Positions 2,046-11,386 of a stretch of DNA of 64,000 bases are shown in pieces. The notes beneath the pieces were generated by a model. The model searched no databases and was not told the origin of the DNA. It was given only the letters and a program-made list of their open reading frames with translations. Position numbers and translations under genes: made by a program. Location: contig FAON01000004.1 of NCBI GenBank assembly GCA_001485605.1, positions 1 to 64,000 on the forward strand, in the 5' to 3' direction. The stretch is from Candidatus Kryptobacter tengchongensis. Lineage in GTDB: Bacteria; Bacteroidota; Ignavibacteria; Kryptoniales; Kryptoniaceae. Position 1 is the stretch's first letter. Every line of letters starts with the position of its first letter.

Positions 2046-2430
2046 TGTCATTGCGAGCGTAAGCCAGGATGAAAAATTGACTCATTCCCTAACCCCCTCT
2101 CTATAAAAATAGAGAGGGGGAATTAAAGGGGGTGAGTTAGAAATAAACGTAAGCAATCTTATAAAAATTGTTCTATTGGACAATGACAGGATGAAAATTG
2201 ACTCACCCTCTAACCCCCTCTCTAAAATTAGAGAGGGAGAACTTAATGGGGGGTGAGTTAATAAATCAGAAATTGTCCCAACGTGATTACTTTGTAACTT
2301 AGTGCTTCGTCCCTCGCAATAATTCACCCCTTGTCCCCTCCCTACAGCTCCAGAAGGGGGAACTAAAAGGGTAAGTTAATAAACTGACTCGCCTCCCTCT
2401 AAAATTAGAGAAGAACTAAGGGGCTGAGTT
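2046..2430. repeat. Repeat cluster 1: four hairpin repeats nested in a TGTCATTGCGAG element
   Basis: Copies of a ~60-bp two-tier hairpin lie at 2080-2138, 2201-2259, 2321-2377 (degenerate) and 2387-2430 (degenerate). The outer arms are ACTCACCCCC and GGGGGTGAGT; the inner arms are CCCCCTCTCTA and TAGAGAGGGGG. They are embedded in a second repeat type that starts TGTCATTGCGAG at 2046-2057 and has a decayed partner CCTCGCAAT near 2311-2319. Open frames across this cluster are low-complexity artefacts of the repeats. Confidence 0.85.
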
Positions 2431-2508
2431 AAAAAACGAAGTAATCTTACTTCTGTTAACTTTTAATCATTGAAATTTACATTTGGATTTTTTATAATTC
2501 AACAAAGA

Positions 2509-2582
2509 GCGCCTGTAGCTCAACTGGATAGAGCGTGGGCCTCCGGAGCCCGAGGTTGCGGGTTCAAGTCCCGCCAGGCGCG
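2509..2582 (+). tRNA. tRNA-Arg (anticodon CCG)
   Basis: A full cloverleaf can be folded. The acceptor is GCGCCTG with CAGGCGC, the D stem is GCTC/GAGC, and the anticodon stem is TGGGC/GCCCG around loop CTCCGGA (anticodon CCG, reading CGG). The variable loop is AGGTT and the T arm is GCGGG-TTCAAGT-CCCGC. Discriminator base is G and the 3' CCA is not encoded. It lies between repeat cluster 1 and pdxJ; no integrase is nearby. Confidence 0.95.
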
Positions 2583-2736
2583 CTAAACCCTTCGTTTGCG
2601 AATTCACCCCGACAAAAAATGACAGCCTTTGAATTTGATAAATGTTTTTATTAAAATTTATTTGGTCTCTTTTCTTCGTTTTCACCTGAAACAAAGTTTG
2701 TTAAGTATATAACAAAAAATAAAAAAATTAATTTTT

Positions 2737-3453
2737 ATGAGACTATCTGTAAATGTTGACCATGTAGCAACTTTAAGGGAAGCAAGAGGGGGACTTGAAC
2801 CCGATCCAGTAACCGCAGCTCATATCGCAGAACTTGCCGGAGCCGATGGAATTGTTTGTCATCTACGAGAAGATAGAAGGCATATAAAAGACCGAGACCT
2901 TCGTCTCCTGCGTGAAACAATAAAGACAAAACTTGATCTTGAGATGGCTGCAACTGAAGAAATGGTTAAAATTGCAATTGAAACCCTGCCAGACCTTGTA
3001 ACACTTGTGCCTGAAAGACGACTTGAAAGAACAACTGAAAGAGGTCTAAATGTAATTGACCAAATCCCGCATCTGACCGATGTTGTAATTGAAATGCATA
3101 AATATAATGTAAAAGTCAGTTTATTCGTTGATCCAGATCCAAAACAGATTGAAGCATCTGCAAAGACTGGAGCTGATTTTATAGAGATTCACACGGGTGA
3201 ATATGCAAACGCGAGAAATGAAAAGGAGCAATTTGAGGAGCTTAAAAAAATAAAGGAAGCAGCAAAGCTTGCAAGAAGCCTTGGGCTTGGCGTAAATGCT
3301 GGGCATGGGTTAAACTATTTAAATGTCATTCCTATAACAAGGGTAGAAGAGATTGAAGAGTTAAGTATTGGTCATGCAATTGTTGCGAGGGCAATTTTCG
3401 TTGGTTTTGAAAGAGCTGTTAGGGAAATGGTGAGGTTGGTAAAGGGAATATGA
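2737..3453 (+). CDS. pdxJ: Pyridoxine 5'-phosphate synthase PdxJ
   Basis: Condenses 1-deoxy-D-xylulose 5-phosphate with 3-amino-2-oxopropyl phosphate to pyridoxine 5'-phosphate, the last step of DXP-dependent vitamin B6 synthesis in the cytoplasm. The 238-residue protein has the normal length and begins with the family hallmark [16 protein letters not shown]. Catalytic residues fit the family: His42 in [10 protein letters not shown], Glu69 in DLEMA and His190 in NAGHGLNY. The upstream bases are A/T-rich without a clear Shine-Dalgarno. It sits alone between repeat clusters 1 and 2. The next gene downstream encodes a PLP-dependent enzyme, but the repeats between them argue against an operon. 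Confidence 0.96.
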
Positions 3454-3454
3454 A

Positions 3455-4164
3455 TGATCATTGCGAACATTGAGAGTAGCATTATATTTGGAGAAATGAT
3501 GAAAAACTGACTCACCCCCTAACCCCCTCTCTATAAATAGAGAGGGAGAACTAAGGTGGTGAGTTGATGAATTGACTCACCCTCTAACCCCCTCTCTACA
3601 ACTGTAGAGAGGGGGAACTTAAAGGGGGTGAGTAAAAAAATAAAAATTCCCCCGACATAATTACTTTGCGACTTCGTCGCTTTGCACCATGCAATAATTC
3701 AACTCCTGTTCCCTCTCTACAATTTTAGAGAGGAGAACTAAAGAGGTGAATTAATAAACTGACTCACCCCCTACCCCCTCTCTAAAATTAGAGAGGGGGA
3801 AAATGAAAAGGGGGTGAGTTGAAAAACTGACTCATCCTCTAACCCCCTCTCTGTAAAATAGAGAGTCGGCGAAGCGATCCCTTCGGGAGGGGAACTAAAG
3901 GGGGTGAGTTAGAAATAAGCGTAGCAATTTTACAGAAACATAGAACAACGAAAAGATGAAAAATTGACTCACCCCCTAACCCCTTCTCTATAAATAGAGA
4001 GGGGGCAAATGAAAAGGGGGTGAGTTGAAAAACTGACTCATCCTCTAACCCCCTCTCTATAAAATAGAGAGGGGGGAAATGAAAAGGGGGTGAGTTAATA
4101 AACTCACCCACCAACTCCCTCTCTAAAAATTAGAGAGGTGAAACTTAAGAGAGTGAGTTTAGAA
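3455..4164. repeat. Repeat cluster 2: eight hairpin repeats with TGTCATTGCG-type flanks
   Basis: Eight copies of the two-tier hairpin repeat lie at 3510-3565, 3575-3633, 3701-3752, 3762-3820, 3830-3910, 3967-4026, 4036-4096 and 4101-4159. Stems are conserved while loops vary (CAACTG, AAAAT, AAATT and others). Fragments of the second repeat family flank and separate them (ATCATTGCGAAC at 3457; GACTTCGTCGC...ATGCAAT near 3669-3695). The fifth copy carries a 23-bp insertion at 3866-3888. The cluster fills the whole space between pdxJ and the next gene; no coding sequence is supported. Confidence 0.87.
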
Positions 4165-6402: not shown

Positions 6403-6431
6403 TTGACTTTTAAATTAGAAAGTTTTAAATT
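6403..6431 (+). promoter_or_regulatory. Candidate sigma70-type promoter of the heme-copper operon
   Basis: TTGACT at 6403-6408, a 17-bp spacer, then TAAATT at 6426-6431. Predicted transcription start is near 6438, about 112 bases before the first gene. The -10 hexamer overlaps the left arm of a perfect inverted repeat. Spacing and overlap with an operator-like palindrome make it credible, but the hexamer match is partial. Confidence 0.5.
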
Positions 6432-6456
6432 AAGACAAAATCTGTCTTAATTTAAA
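6424..6456. promoter_or_regulatory. Perfect 14-bp inverted repeat, candidate operator
   Basis: TTTAAATTAAGACA (6424-6437) and TGTCTTAATTTAAA (6443-6456) are exact reverse complements around a 5-base AAATC spacer. The palindrome covers the putative -10 and start site of the respiratory operon, a position typical of a repressor site. I could not match it to a known NO- or oxygen-sensor motif. The arms could also form a hairpin in RNA. No regulator gene is adjacent. Confidence 0.6.
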
Positions 6457-6549: not shown

Positions 6550-7152
6550 ATGGCGGTGATAAATTTAATTGCCGTGCTAATTTTCATCATTTTTTCCATC
6601 GTTATTTTTGGGGTTTATGCATATTTTTTCAACTCAACCAGAAGACCAGCCGAGGGGGCGGATTATTACAAAGTTGTCACGAAACTTCGTGTTCCCTTCT
6701 TTTTTCTTATTTTGCTTTTATTGATCGCCGGGCTTGTGCTCACTCTCCCTAAAGTTCCTTATCCATCAAGTGGGCAATTTCCAGATGCAGTTGTTTATGT
6801 CGTCGGAAAACAGTTTTCATTTGCCTTTGATACTCAACCAATTGAAACTGAAGAAAGATGGAAAGAAAGAACAGAAGCCGAGCCAGTTCAGGTGCCTTCG
6901 GATAAATGGATTGAATTTAGAGTTACAAGTTTAGATGTAAATCACGGGTTCAGCCTCTATGATGAGAACGGAAAACTTCTCGGACAGACACAGGCAATGC
7001 CAGGATATGTCAATCGCTTGTTTATAAAATTTGATCAACCCGGATTTTACACTGCTTATTGTATGGAACTCTGTGGAAACTCACATCATGCGATGAAAGG
7101 TATAATTGAAGTTGTTGAAACGAGGAGTTTTAGTTCAAAAATTCCAAATTAA
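6550..7152 (+). CDS. Heme-copper oxidase/NO-reductase subunit II, CuA cupredoxin
   Basis: Electron-entry subunit of a membrane heme-copper complex, 200 residues. Two N-terminal membrane segments (about 5-27 and 47-66) anchor a periplasmic cupredoxin domain. The binuclear CuA site is complete: His132, Cys171, Glu173, Cys175, His179 and Met182, from the motif CMELCGNSHHAM. It accepts electrons from cytochrome c and passes them to subunit I, encoded 16 bases downstream. A strong GGAGG lies before the ATG. With subunit I and the SCO gene the order matches clusters described as norSY-senC, where this subunit is called NorS; a b(o/a)3-type oxidase subunit II is the alternative. Confidence 0.9.
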   Translation: MAVINLIAVLIFIIFSIVIFGVYAYFFNSTRRPAEGADYYKVVTKLRVPFFFLILLLLIAGLVLTLPKVPYPSSGQFPDAVVYVVGKQFSFAFDTQPIETEERWKERTEAEPVQVPSDKWIEFRVTSLDVNHGFSLYDENGKLLGQTQAMPGYVNRLFIKFDQPGFYTAYCMELCGNSHHAMKGIIEVVETRSFSSKIPN

Positions 7153-7167
7153 AAATGGGGGTTTAAA

Positions 7168-8628
7168 ATGACAGAGGTAGCAATAAAAGCGGAAGCAATT
7201 GAGATAGAGGCGAAGGTGAAAAAATTAACTCTTATATGGACTGGGTTAACTTTTGTTCTATTCCCAATTCTTGGATTGCTTGGTTTTCTGATGCGGTTTG
7301 TTCAGAGCAATATCTTCCCAGCATTCCCACCAGAATGGTTTTATTCAATTTTAACTCTTCACGGCGTGGGGATGGTCGGATTGTGGTATGTTGAAGGGAT
7401 GACAGCTGTTATATATCTTCTTTCAAAATATGTAAAGCCAAATACAGCTGTTTCTTGGTTTTCGTTTGCACTGACGCTTGTAGGTGTTGCGTTAATTATA
7501 ATTTCAACAATCGGTGGCAAGTTTGGAGCCGGTTGGTATTTTCTTTATCCATTGCCTTACAAATCAGCCGAAATCTGGTCTAATTGGGCAACCGACTTTT
7601 ATCTCATTGGGCTTGGAATTCTTGGAATTGCGTGGACTGTCTGGGTGATAGATGTTTTAAGAGCGATAGCTCAAAGATATTCACTTAATCAGGCGCTTGC
7701 ATGGCATTATCTTGCTGGTAAAGTTGAACCGGAAACCCCACCAATTATTTTAATTGTCACAGTTTCGTGTATCGCTGCTATAACTGGATTTCTGGCAGCT
7801 GTTGCGTTGCTTTTACTGTTTTTATTTGATAGGGTTTCCGGCACACCAGCTGATCCGCTGCTTATGAAAAATCTTGTCTTTTACTTCGGGCATGTGCTTG
7901 TAAATATCACAATGTATCTTGGCGTCGCAATCCTTTATGAAGTATTGCCTCAATATACGCAGAGACCGTGGAAGACAAATAAACTTGTCGCCTTTGCCTG
8001 GAACACAGTTCTATTCCTTGTTCTTTTTGCTTACTTCCATCATTTGTATATGGATTTCGTTCAACCAAAAGCTTTCCAAATAATAGGTCAATTTGCTTCG
8101 TATTTTATTTCAGTTCCAGCTGCGGTGGTGACAATTTTCAGCGCTCTTGCAATGATTTACAGGACAAAGGTTAACTGGACGCTTGGATCTTCATTGGTAT
8201 TTCTTGGGACTATGGGCTGGGCTGTTGGGGGAGTTGCAGCTGTGATTGATTCTTCAATTGCTGTTAATTTTAGGTTTCATAATACGCTCTGGGTCCCGGC
8301 ACATTTTCATACATACTTCCTGATGGGGGTTGTGCTTATGATTCTTGGATTTATATATCACTTTTCACAGGAACATTCAAAAATTCCTGATAACTCAAAA
8401 CTTGCAAGGTTAACCCTCTGGTTAATTTTAATAGGAGGTTACGGTTTCTTAAGCATGTTTTACACAGGTGGAGCACTGTTTGTCCCAAGAAGATATGCGC
8501 TTTATCCATCTACTTTTTCAGCCGGGGTGACAATAGCTCAAATAAGTATTGTTTTTGTCAGTATATTAACGATTGGCTTACTCTTATACCTAATTCAAAC
8601 GATAAGAAGATGGGCAAGATCATTTTAG
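7168..8628 (+). CDS. Heme-copper subunit I, probable NO reductase (active-site Tyr replaced by Asn)
   Basis: Catalytic subunit, 486 residues with about 12-13 hydrophobic helices. All six metal-binding histidines are present: His65 (low-spin heme), His242, His291 and His292 (CuB or FeB), His379 (high-spin heme) and His381 (low-spin heme). In A- and B-type oxidases the first CuB histidine is followed four residues later by a Tyr cross-linked to it. Here the sequence is GHVLVN, with Asn246 in that place. Tyr289, two residues before the His pair, is not at the position used by cbb3 oxidases. Loss of this Tyr is a hallmark of NO reductases in the superfamily, so NO reduction to N2O is more likely than oxygen reduction. 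Family membership is certain; activity is inferred. Confidence 0.88.
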   Translation: MTEVAIKAEAIEIEAKVKKLTLIWTGLTFVLFPILGLLGFLMRFVQSNIFPAFPPEWFYSILTLHGVGMVGLWYVEGMTAVIYLLSKYVKPNTAVSWFSFALTLVGVALIIISTIGGKFGAGWYFLYPLPYKSAEIWSNWATDFYLIGLGILGIAWTVWVIDVLRAIAQRYSLNQALAWHYLAGKVEPETPPIILIVTVSCIAAITGFLAAVALLLLFLFDRVSGTPADPLLMKNLVFYFGHVLVNITMYLGVAILYEVLPQYTQRPWKTNKLVAFAWNTVLFLVLFAYFHHLYMDFVQPKAFQIIGQFASYFISVPAAVVTIFSALAMIYRTKVNWTLGSSLVFLGTMGWAVGGVAAVIDSSIAVNFRFHNTLWVPAHFHTYFLMGVVLMILGFIYHFSQEHSKIPDNSKLARLTLWLILIGGYGFLSMFYTGGALFVPRRYALYPSTFSAGVTIAQISIVFVSILTIGLLLYLIQTIRRWARSF

Positions 8629-9401
8629 TAATTTTACTGGCGCTGGGGCAAACCGCCCTGGCGCAGGATTCATCTGAAATAAATAATCTGTTTCCCTCAG
8701 AGGAAAGATACCTGTATAAAGACATATCAGATGTTAAACTTGTAGATTCCAACGGCAAAATTACTTCTTTATCAAAAATTTGGCATGAAAAACCTATTCT
8801 TCTCACCTTGATTTTCTCCCGCTGTGCTGGAATTTGCTCACCCCTTATTTCATCTTTGAAATTCTCAGTTGACAAAATAAAGGAAAATAAGAATTTTTAT
8901 ATCGTTGTTTTAAGCTTTGATACTGCTGATACACAAGAGGATATGAAAGTTTTAAAAGAGGGGTTTGAACTTGGTGAAAATGAAAATTGGATATTTGGGG
9001 TTTTTGCTGAAAAAGATGAAATTAAAAAATTATCAAAGGAGATAGGATTTTGGTATAAGTGGGTTGACTCAACAGGACAGTATGATCATCCAGGAATTGT
9101 TGTTGGAATAAGACAAGGCAAGATAGTAAGGATTTTAGTTGGGGGCAATATAACCCTTGTAAAACTGCGCGAGGTAGTTCAGGAAATTAAGGGCGAATTT
9201 GTGCCGTTCTATGGGACTCAGAGAAACGTTGCTTTCAAATGTTTAAATTACGACCCTGAAACCGGAAATGTAAAGATAGGATTTGGAACAGTTATATTAT
9301 TTATCCCCGCTCTTTTAACACTTGCAGTAACTCTTTCAATTTTTTATCTAACCCCAAAAACAAAAAATAAAATGGAGGTTAAAAATGCTTCGCAATTCTA
9401 A
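8610..9401 (+). CDS. SCO1/SenC-type copper chaperone with C-terminal membrane anchor
   Basis: Thioredoxin-fold copper chaperone of 263 residues that assembles the CuA site of subunit II. An N-terminal signal segment (MGKIILVILLALGQTALAQ) is followed by the SCO domain. Copper ligands are the CAGIC cysteine pair near residue 70 and a histidine in QYDHPG. Unlike many SCO proteins it also has a C-terminal hydrophobic helix (VILFIPALLTLAVTLSIFYL), so it may be anchored at that end. It overlaps subunit I by 19 bases and the next cytochrome gene by 17, indicating translational coupling. Its presence supports a functional CuA centre. Confidence 0.92.
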   Translation: MGKIILVILLALGQTALAQDSSEINNLFPSEERYLYKDISDVKLVDSNGKITSLSKIWHEKPILLTLIFSRCAGICSPLISSLKFSVDKIKENKNFYIVVLSFDTADTQEDMKVLKEGFELGENENWIFGVFAEKDEIKKLSKEIGFWYKWVDSTGQYDHPGIVVGIRQGKIVRILVGGNITLVKLREVVQEIKGEFVPFYGTQRNVAFKCLNYDPETGNVKIGFGTVILFIPALLTLAVTLSIFYLTPKTKNKMEVKNASQF

Positions 9402-10557
9402 ATTGTTTTATCCTTTGCTTGCTTTGTTATTTCTTTTCATGTTAAGTGAGATTGCCACCGGTATCCCGCTTTTCGCACGAAAGTATAATCGCTCTTGTTT
9501 CACATGTCATACATCACCACCGATGTTGAATGAATTCGGACGAAGATTCCAATCAAATGGTTATCAACTTCCCGGCACCGTTGAATCAACGCCTATCTGG
9601 ATGTCAAATCAACTTCCATTTGCAGCGATGCTCCGCTCAGTTTTTTCGTGGACGAGAGAAGAAGCGGAAGGGACAAAGAAATCAACATTTACATTTGAGC
9701 GAACAGGTGCTGATATATTTACAGCAGGAACGCTCGGAAAGCATTTATCTTATTTTGCTGCTGTTGTCGTTGATCCCGCTGAAGGTGGCGGTTATGAAGC
9801 AGCAGTTGAAGTTGTCCATGTAATTTATAACAATATCTTACCAATGAGCAACTTGAACTTAAAATTTGGCTCCTTCCGACTTGACCTTCCCTACCCTGTT
9901 AATCTCGCATTGAGCGAAGCTGGATATCTTGTTTATGAGCATATTTCAGAAGTTAAAGCAGATAATCAAGTTGAGGCTGAATTTTCACTCGCCGAGCCAC
10001 AGATCGGGGTTTCAGTTTATGGTTTTCTCCCACAGGTTCTTGATGGGTTAAGATATGAAGTTGCAATTGTAAATGGAACAAATGTAAGTGAGGATATAGA
10101 TAACACCCCTGATTTGTATGTCAGATTAAATCAAAGTATATGGTTAAATAATGCACCGTTTAGAGCAGGTATACTTTACTATCTTGGTAAAATGAAGGGA
10201 AGTGTAGAGGAAAATAATTTCAACCGATTTGGTTTTGATGCCGAAATTTATGATCCATGGGCTAAAAAAGTAAATGTTTATTTCCAGTATTTAACAGCCA
10301 CTGATAAAGTTGCAGGTCAAGAATTAAAAATGAATGGTGGATTCATAGGAGCGAATATCTTTATACTTCCAGAGAAGCTTGTAGGCTTTACAAGATATGA
10401 TTTTAAAAAAGCTGAGGATGTGAAAACAAATCAATTTTCAATTGGTTTAAGATATCATCTTGCTCCGAATGTTTTTCTAACTGGCGAGTTTATAAATTCT
10501 AAAGAAGGGGAAATGAAAACGAACAAGTTCATGCTGATGACTCATTTACTATTTTAA
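9385..10557 (+). CDS. Secreted cytochrome c domain fused to probable beta-barrel
   Basis: Signal peptide (about 1-26) followed at once by one heme-c motif, CFTCH (Cys38, Cys41, His42), in the segment ARKYNRSCFTCHTSPP. The remaining ~330 residues are rich in alternating aromatic and polar beta-strand patterns such as GFTRYDFKKAEDV and FSIGLRYHLAPNVFLTGEF. The protein ends in LLF, like an outer-membrane barrel. It could carry electrons at or across the outer membrane, or be a periplasmic cytochrome with a beta domain. It overlaps the SCO gene and has GGAGG before its ATG, so it belongs to the operon. Barrel fold is inferred from pattern only. Confidence 0.75.
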   Translation: MLRNSKLFYPLLALLFLFMLSEIATGIPLFARKYNRSCFTCHTSPPMLNEFGRRFQSNGYQLPGTVESTPIWMSNQLPFAAMLRSVFSWTREEAEGTKKSTFTFERTGADIFTAGTLGKHLSYFAAVVVDPAEGGGYEAAVEVVHVIYNNILPMSNLNLKFGSFRLDLPYPVNLALSEAGYLVYEHISEVKADNQVEAEFSLAEPQIGVSVYGFLPQVLDGLRYEVAIVNGTNVSEDIDNTPDLYVRLNQSIWLNNAPFRAGILYYLGKMKGSVEENNFNRFGFDAEIYDPWAKKVNVYFQYLTATDKVAGQELKMNGGFIGANIFILPEKLVGFTRYDFKKAEDVKTNQFSIGLRYHLAPNVFLTGEFINSKEGEMKTNKFMLMTHLLF

Positions 10558-10591
10558 AATGAAATTTTAAACCAAAAAACGGAGGTTTCAA

Positions 10592-11386
10592 ATGAAGATA
10601 AAGTTATTTTCAGTTCTGTTTATACTTGGGGTTTTCATATACGGCTTTACAGGAAATGATCAACCGAATAGACCCTCAAAAGATGTTATAGAGCAAGGTA
10701 AAAAAGTTTTTAATTACGTCTGTGCGCCATGCCACGGAAAGGACGGAAAAGGAGATGGGGTTGTAAGTTCTACAATTTTTGTTAAACCAAGGAATTTCAC
10801 AACAGGTGTGTATAAGTTTAGATCAACTGAAAGTGGAAACCTGCCAACAGACTCGGATTTGTATGAATCAATCTCACTTGGCTTCCATAATACAGCGATG
10901 CCATCATTTACTAATCTTTCCCCAGAAGATAGATTTGCAGTGATGGAGTACATCAAAACATTTTCGGAAAGATTTTCAAACCCAAATGAATATCCTTTGA
11001 AAATAATTGAGCCTGCGAATCAAATACCACTTTCACCAGAGAGCGTAGCTAAAGGGAGAGAAATTTACCTCAGAATGAAATGCTGGGAATGCCATGGTGT
11101 AAGTGGCAAGGGCGATGGTCCCGCGGCAAAATATGGCTTTAAAGATGATTGGGGAAATAAGATATTGATTCCGGATTTAACAAACCCAAATGAAGTTAAA
11201 AGAGCTACAACAGTTGAGGAAATTTACCTTGTTTTCACAACTGGTTTAAATGGAAGCCCGATGCCTTCGTATAAAGAAGTTTTGACCGATGAAGAAAGGT
11301 GGCATCTTGCAAATTACATTTATGCACTTATTCATGGGATTGCACTTTACGATGGAAAGACAATTGAGCAGTTGAAAACACCGTAA
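10592..11386 (+). CDS. Periplasmic diheme cytochrome c
   Basis: 264 residues with an N-terminal signal segment and two class I cytochrome c domains. Heme-binding motifs are CAPCH (Cys44, Cys47, His48) and CWECH (Cys164, Cys167, His168), each followed by GKGDG. Likely axial Met ligands are Met103 (TAMPSF) and the Met of GSPMPSY near residue 225. It probably donates electrons to the CuA site of the heme-copper complex encoded upstream. GGAGG precedes the ATG. This is the last gene of the operon; repeat cluster 3 begins about 15 bases beyond the stop. Confidence 0.93.
   Translation: MKIKLFSVLFILGVFIYGFTGNDQPNRPSKDVIEQGKKVFNYVCAPCHGKDGKGDGVVSSTIFVKPRNFTTGVYKFRSTESGNLPTDSDLYESISLGFHNTAMPSFTNLSPEDRFAVMEYIKTFSERFSNPNEYPLKIIEPANQIPLSPESVAKGREIYLRMKCWECHGVSGKGDGPAAKYGFKDDWGNKILIPDLTNPNEVKRATTVEEIYLVFTTGLNGSPMPSYKEVLTDEERWHLANYIYALIHGIALYDGKTIEQLKTP

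Follow-up and report, generated by a model that had tools for sequence, protein, structure and literature searches.

Oxidases of the heme-copper superfamily carry a cross-linked Tyr in subunit I, and NO reductases of the same superfamily carry Glu, Gln, Asp, or Asn at that position (PMC3475470). The residue is Asn in sNOR, Gln in eNOR, and Asp in gNOR (PMC8756737). These reports bear out two statements that an earlier, sequence-only reading of the locus described here (the original prediction) had made: that NO reductase families lack the Tyr and that they have distinct polar residues in its place. In ammonia oxidizers, the sNOR genes are found in the order norSY-senC-orf1, e.g., NE0683-86 (PMC4940428). 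We found no purified sNOR and no direct sNOR activity data in the literature. There is indirect evidence in Nitrococcus, and the same work prefers a high-affinity oxidase role for sNOR in Nitrosomonas (PMC6967387).

We analyzed a window of 64,000 nucleotides (the whole stretch of DNA under study) from contig C4 of a 2.68-Mb genome, 98.7% complete, of Candidatus Kryptobacter tengchongensis, a hot-spring bacterium of the Candidatus Kryptonia. Based on sequence comparisons and models, we believe, with a probability of about three in four, that an operon in this window encodes an Asn-type CuA, cytochrome c-fed NO reductase of the sNOR (norS-norY-senC) kind. This family of NO reductases is known and poorly characterized. 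A Cyc2-like module in the operon and a promoter shared with an oxidase operon appear to be the new parts.

Subunit I has an Asn at the position of the cross-linked Tyr

The gene at 7168-8628 (+ strand, ATG start) encodes a 486-residue protein, the putative catalytic subunit I (NorY/sNOR-like), that matches Pfam COX1 with 199 bits (cut-off 34.8). We aligned this protein with the ba3 oxidases of Thermus thermophilus and Aquifex aeolicus, using sequences from PDB matches. The six His ligands previously noted were all present: H65, H242, H291-H292, H379, and H381 align with H72, H233, H282-H283, H384, and H386 of Thermus ba3. Asn246 aligns with Tyr237 of ba3, in agreement with the reported replacement of Tyr by Asn. 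We considered an ordinary oxidase made to look unusual by misalignment and rejected this because the Tyr column is unambiguous and Asn is fixed family-wide. A shift of the Tyr to its C-type position was also ruled out. The cbb3 sequences read here have a Tyr in helix VII, at the sixth position ahead of the HH pair, and subunit I has Val285 there.

Conservation was also examined at other Tyr and at the K-channel residues. Tyr250 is invariant in the family, and Tyr289, two residues before the HH pair, is nearly so, its equivalent being Phe in one NorY from an ammonia oxidizer. Two of four K-channel residues are kept: Y244, Y248, S309, and T312 of ba3 correspond to V253, Y257, A318, and T322. An AlphaFold model of subunit I has 12 membrane helices (pLDDT 87). 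In a fold search this model matched aa3 and ba3 enzymes with TM scores up to 0.84 and 0.77, a match at the level of the superfamily that does not discriminate between its members.

Asn is conserved among relatives of subunit I

A scan of named genomes yielded 80 loci with relatives of subunit I that are 40-91% identical, the closest named record being Ca. Chrysopegis kryptomonas (91%). The family is spread over Acidobacteriota, Bacteroidota, Planctomycetota, Spirochaetota, Myxococcota, Pseudomonadota, Methylomirabilota, Calditrichota, and Actinomycetota. Asn was at the Tyr column in all family members read (80 fetched loci) and in 42/42 members of the comparison set, including same-genus orthologues that are 86-91% identical. 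Because all of these carry Asn, Asn246 is neither chance nor a sequencing slip. Among all heme-copper proteins read, the Asn, Tyr, Gln, and Glu forms are separate groups.

We also noted several unusual proteins. In Ca. Parvibacillus calidus (L058:8001-9440), the helix VI His is replaced by Arg and the Asn is kept (FGRTLVN), indicating either a sequence error or a dead enzyme. One contig (L036) has a standard family member and also, at 7683-9200 on the minus strand, a divergent Asn-type subunit I (FAHTLVN, MGHHLQ) that is 31% identical to the window protein and has its own CuA subunit nearby. Two proteins from Burkholderiales/Sulfuritalea (L149:1803-3365, minus strand; L150:1847-3424, plus strand) have Glu at the Tyr position (FAHNLMEAM), adjoin a CuA subunit, and branch beside the Asn clade in our tree. 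In these, HFM or HTM replaces HFH, so that the second ligand of the low-spin heme would be Met.

Subunit I groups with NorY and not with proven oxidases

For sNOR anchors, we turned to ammonia oxidizers, recognized as genomes of one betaproteobacterial order that have amoA, often in multiple copies. Two of eight such genomes had an Asn-bearing subunit I, 36-38% identical to that in the window, in the order CuA-I-SCO-orf, and these two were the anchors. In a maximum-likelihood tree, the window protein, its relatives, these two NorY proteins, and proteins from Ruegeria (the R. pomeroyi megaplasmid) and Thermomicrobium (a plasmid) formed one Asn clade (support 99/95). The proven ba3 oxidases of Thermus and Aquifex were apart from this clade and grouped with the Gln (eNOR-like) proteins (99/98), and a tree with more rows gave the same picture. 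Clustering with proven B-type oxidases, named beforehand as evidence against an NO reductase, did not occur in our trees. The deeper order is less sure due to the long branches of the Glu proteins and the divergent minus-strand copy of L036.

Other classes were compared and set aside. A B-type (ba3) oxygen reductase has Tyr237 where the window protein has Asn246, and the two do not group. A C-type (cbb3) enzyme has Tyr in place of Val285. The eNOR proteins have Gln and are in a separate clade, and gNOR and cNOR/qNOR have the wrong residue (Asp and Glu, respectively). For bNOR, which is outside the tree, the distinction is by published description: subunit I of the window has 12 helices, not 13, and subunit II has two transmembrane helices, not one.

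The flanking genes encode a CuA subunit and a SCO protein

The gene at 6550-7152 (+) encodes a putative NorS-like CuA subunit II (Pfam COX2). It has two predicted N-terminal transmembrane helices (hydrophobic segments at residues 1-30 and 40-72) and an intact CuA motif, C-x-E-x-C-x3-H-x2-M. Overlapping the end of subunit I, the gene at 8610-9401 (+) encodes a predicted SCO1/SenC copper chaperone (Pfam SCO1-SenC) with a CxxxC motif at residue 72. A subunit II homologue adjoins subunit I in 83 of 84 loci, and a SCO homologue is near it in 51 of 84. The resemblance to norS-norY-senC that had been suggested thus holds, both in the clade shared with amoA-anchored NorY and in the gene order (PMC4940428).

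Among the genes flanking the relatives (n=123), the most frequent families after SCO were formate/nitrite transporter (7) and hemerythrin (5). ScdA_N (3), Rrf2 (2), and cytochrome d1 (1) were also found. These families indicate a nitrogen-oxide setting, which we count in favor of an NO reductase.

Taken together, the operon has what is expected of an sNOR as judged from sequence: Asn with the six His, placement in the NorY clade, a two-helix CuA subunit, 12 helices in subunit I, and an adjoining SenC gene.

The operon contains a Cyc2-like gene and a diheme cytochrome gene

The gene at 9385-10557 (+), which overlaps the SCO gene, encodes a 390-residue protein that appears to be a Cyc2-like fusion of a monoheme cytochrome to an outer-membrane beta barrel, a type of cytochrome that iron-oxidizing bacteria use. 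Published marks of Cyc2 are PXFAR[Q/K][T/Y], CXXCH, and PXL motifs, a length of at least 365 residues, and a 16-strand porin (PMC8406198). The protein has an N-terminal hydrophobic segment, then PLFARKY-x3-CFTCH-x3-PML with a single CXXCH, and then a strand-only domain. Its model is an all-strand barrel of about 16-18 strands (pLDDT 76), and Foldseek matched this model to outer-membrane porins, including OprO, with Omp32 and OprP among the best. The protein thus agrees with the published marks in motif, length, and porin, with Gly in place of the leading Ala of AXPXFAR. The gene at 10592-11386 (+; Pfam Cytochrom_C) encodes a predicted diheme cytochrome c (CAPCH, CWECH), a likely electron carrier.

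Among the NOR loci read, only those of Kryptonia have the Cyc2-like and diheme genes at the end of the operon (9385-11386). Three further genomes from the wider phylum also have their nearest Cyc2-like gene directly beside one for a diheme cytochrome that is 47-50% identical. One of these (L222) has the pair at the end of a cluster that also includes an A-type oxidase and an ActD-type gene of alternative complex III. Ahead of the pair is a gene whose cupredoxin-like product is a homologue (35%) of the protein encoded by the gene that heads the A-type oxidase operon in Kryptonia. Because Cyc2-like genes are common in the phylum (80 of 297 genomes) and often paralogous, iron as the electron donor is hypothetical.

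One genome of the genus (G003; loci L085 and L004) has an in-frame TGA in the NOR subunit I gene, has lost the Cyc2-like gene, and has a remnant of the diheme gene. Parts of the operon therefore seem to decay together.

The promoter region resembles that of the A-type oxidase operon

A putative promoter with a perfect dyad is at 6403-6450 (+). The -35 (TTGACT, 6403-6408) and -10 (TTAAAT, 6425-6430) sequences were recognized by consensus only. The dyad, TTAAGACA-AAATC-TGTCTTAA (6430-6450, +), overlaps the promoter and is 100 bases upstream of the subunit II gene. Allowing at most one mismatch, TTAAGACA-N5-TGTCTTAA occurs in five places genome-wide compared to three for a reversed control. A second dyad, at 229095-229115 of contig C4, has the same -35 sequence and spacing and heads the A-type oxidase operon. 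The first gene of that operon encodes a cupredoxin-like protein, assigned by an H...C-x-x-H-x-x-M motif rather than by a family match.

The arrangement is conserved in the genus. Promoter and dyad precede the NOR operon both in the window and in three other genomes, and they precede the A-type oxidase operon in 6/6 genomes examined. Since they are common to both operons, both terminal enzymes appear to be under one regulator. FNR-type boxes in the window were near chance level. Elsewhere in the window (2067-4141), there are at least seven imperfect repeats of ~79 nt between genes, with a hairpin core CCCCCTCTCTA..TAGAGAGGGGG; spurious open reading frames arise there.

Denitrification genes in the genome and the genus

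The genome encodes only two heme-copper subunits I, the protein at 7168-8628 and an A-type protein that has the Tyr (LGHPEVY). NosZ is present (925 bits). Searches of the genome gave only weak partial matches for NirS, only a weak match for NirK inside the nosZ gene region, and no clear match for NrfA, with weak partial matches in other frames. With NirK, NirS, and a clear NrfA absent, NO must come from outside, and we count this against an NO reductase.

In the genus, NOR genes are in five genomes, one of them with the in-frame stop described above. NosZ is in four of these five, and the fifth is only 71% complete. Of two further genomes, one has NosZ but lacks NOR and the other lacks both. 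Kryptonia were described as having NosZ and no other denitrification gene (PMC4737851). The operon is a candidate NO reductase, recognized by its sequence, that this description missed and that contradicts it.

Function of the operon

The tree, the Asn, and the gene layout support, by inference, the original prediction that the operon encodes an NO reductase and not a terminal oxidase. We infer the electron route, catalysis, and substrate as follows. A periplasmic cytochrome c, for which the diheme cytochrome of the operon is the obvious candidate, would pass electrons to CuA of subunit II. From there they would move to the low-spin heme (H65/H381) and on to the high-spin heme (H379) and the metal at H242/H291/H292, where two NO could be joined to form N2O. 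With Asn246, the enzyme would lack the redox Tyr on which oxygen reductases rely to split the O-O bond; reduction of NO needs only two electrons. The N2O could then pass to NosZ. We count NosZ and the separate Tyr-bearing A-type oxidase in favor of an NO reductase. Counted against it are the promoter shared with the aerobic oxidase operon and the partly kept K-channel (Y257 and T322, with the Y244 and S309 equivalents lost).

It is possible, but in our estimation unlikely, that the enzyme instead reduces O2 with high affinity, managing without the cross-linked Tyr and obtaining the extra electron from another residue, such as Tyr289 or Tyr250, or from fast delivery. This role has been put forward for the Nitrosomonas sNOR because limiting O2 induces it (PMC6967387). 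The conservation of Tyr250 and Tyr289 would fit, but the Phe for Tyr289 in one NorY and the lack of a Tyr at the cbb3 position would not. Likewise, the promoter and dyad are those of the A-type oxidase operon, yet that oxidase already provides the genome with a Tyr-bearing enzyme, and the neighbors of the relatives point to nitrogen oxides. Moreover, the purified Bacillus CuA-NOR also has Asn for Tyr (PMC3475470). A different notion, which we regard as slightly less likely still, is that NO is reduced mainly for detoxification when O2 is present, perhaps with some reduction of O2 on the side, and that the enzyme protects the co-regulated A-type oxidase rather than supporting NO respiration. 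The promoter common to the two operons in the genus, the absence of a nitrite reductase upstream, and the hemerythrin and ScdA-type genes beside relatives are consistent with this notion; that all but one of the five genomes with NOR also have NosZ fits a respiratory role as well. The respiratory and detoxifying roles of an NO reductase are not exclusive.

If the operon encodes an NO reductase, then Kryptonia could take NO through N2O to N2 within a single cell, beside Thermus strains that stop at N2O. Standard databases list Asn-type CuA NO reductases of Bacillota as cytochrome c oxidases (PMC11388526). Given such COX1-type scoring and annotation and the spread of the family over many phyla, turnover of NO and N2O is probably under-counted.

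Comparison with known systems

The operon is like that for sNOR of ammonia oxidizers in the helix VI Asn, the CuA subunit, the adjoining SCO gene, and the clade of subunit I (36-38% identity). It differs in that the family of the window protein branches as a sister subclade, and in that ammonia oxidizers have orf1 where Kryptonia have the Cyc2-like and diheme cytochrome genes. Type II CuA-NOR of Bacillus/Geobacillus (PMC3475470) shares the length of ~490 residues, 12 helices, the Asn, a two-helix CuA subunit II, and SenC, a likeness drawn from the published description and not from the Bacillus sequence. The Geobacillus enzyme has been placed under sNOR (PMC8756737). The purified bNOR (qCuANOR) of Bacillus azotoformans also has Asn for Tyr, a CuA subunit, and SenC; in contrast, it is longer, with 13 helices, a subunit II with a single transmembrane helix, and a 46-residue peptide (PMC3475470).

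The module at the end of the operon is most like the rus operon of Acidithiobacillus, cyc2-cyc1-cup-coxBACD-rus (PMC10654088). In both, genes for an outer-membrane Cyc2-like protein, a diheme cytochrome c, a cupredoxin-like protein, and a CuA heme-copper enzyme are together or under one type of promoter. This suggests that electrons entering at the outer membrane may feed the NO reductase and the A-type oxidase, and the Cyc2-like gene makes such entry into an NO reductase a concrete, testable claim. A more specific idea, which we consider doubtful, is that the operon does for NO reduction what rus does in Acidithiobacillus: Fe(II) or another outside donor would reduce the Cyc2-like protein, which would pass electrons to the diheme cytochrome, then to NOR and, with the cupredoxin-like protein, to the A-type oxidase, enabling iron-dependent NO reduction in hot springs. 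Two differences from rus are that a predicted Asn-type NO reductase adjoins the Cyc2-like gene in Kryptonia, and that the cupredoxin-like gene heads the other, A-type oxidase operon. In L222, the cupredoxin-like, Cyc2-like, and diheme genes are together behind the oxidase cluster, as in the rus operon.
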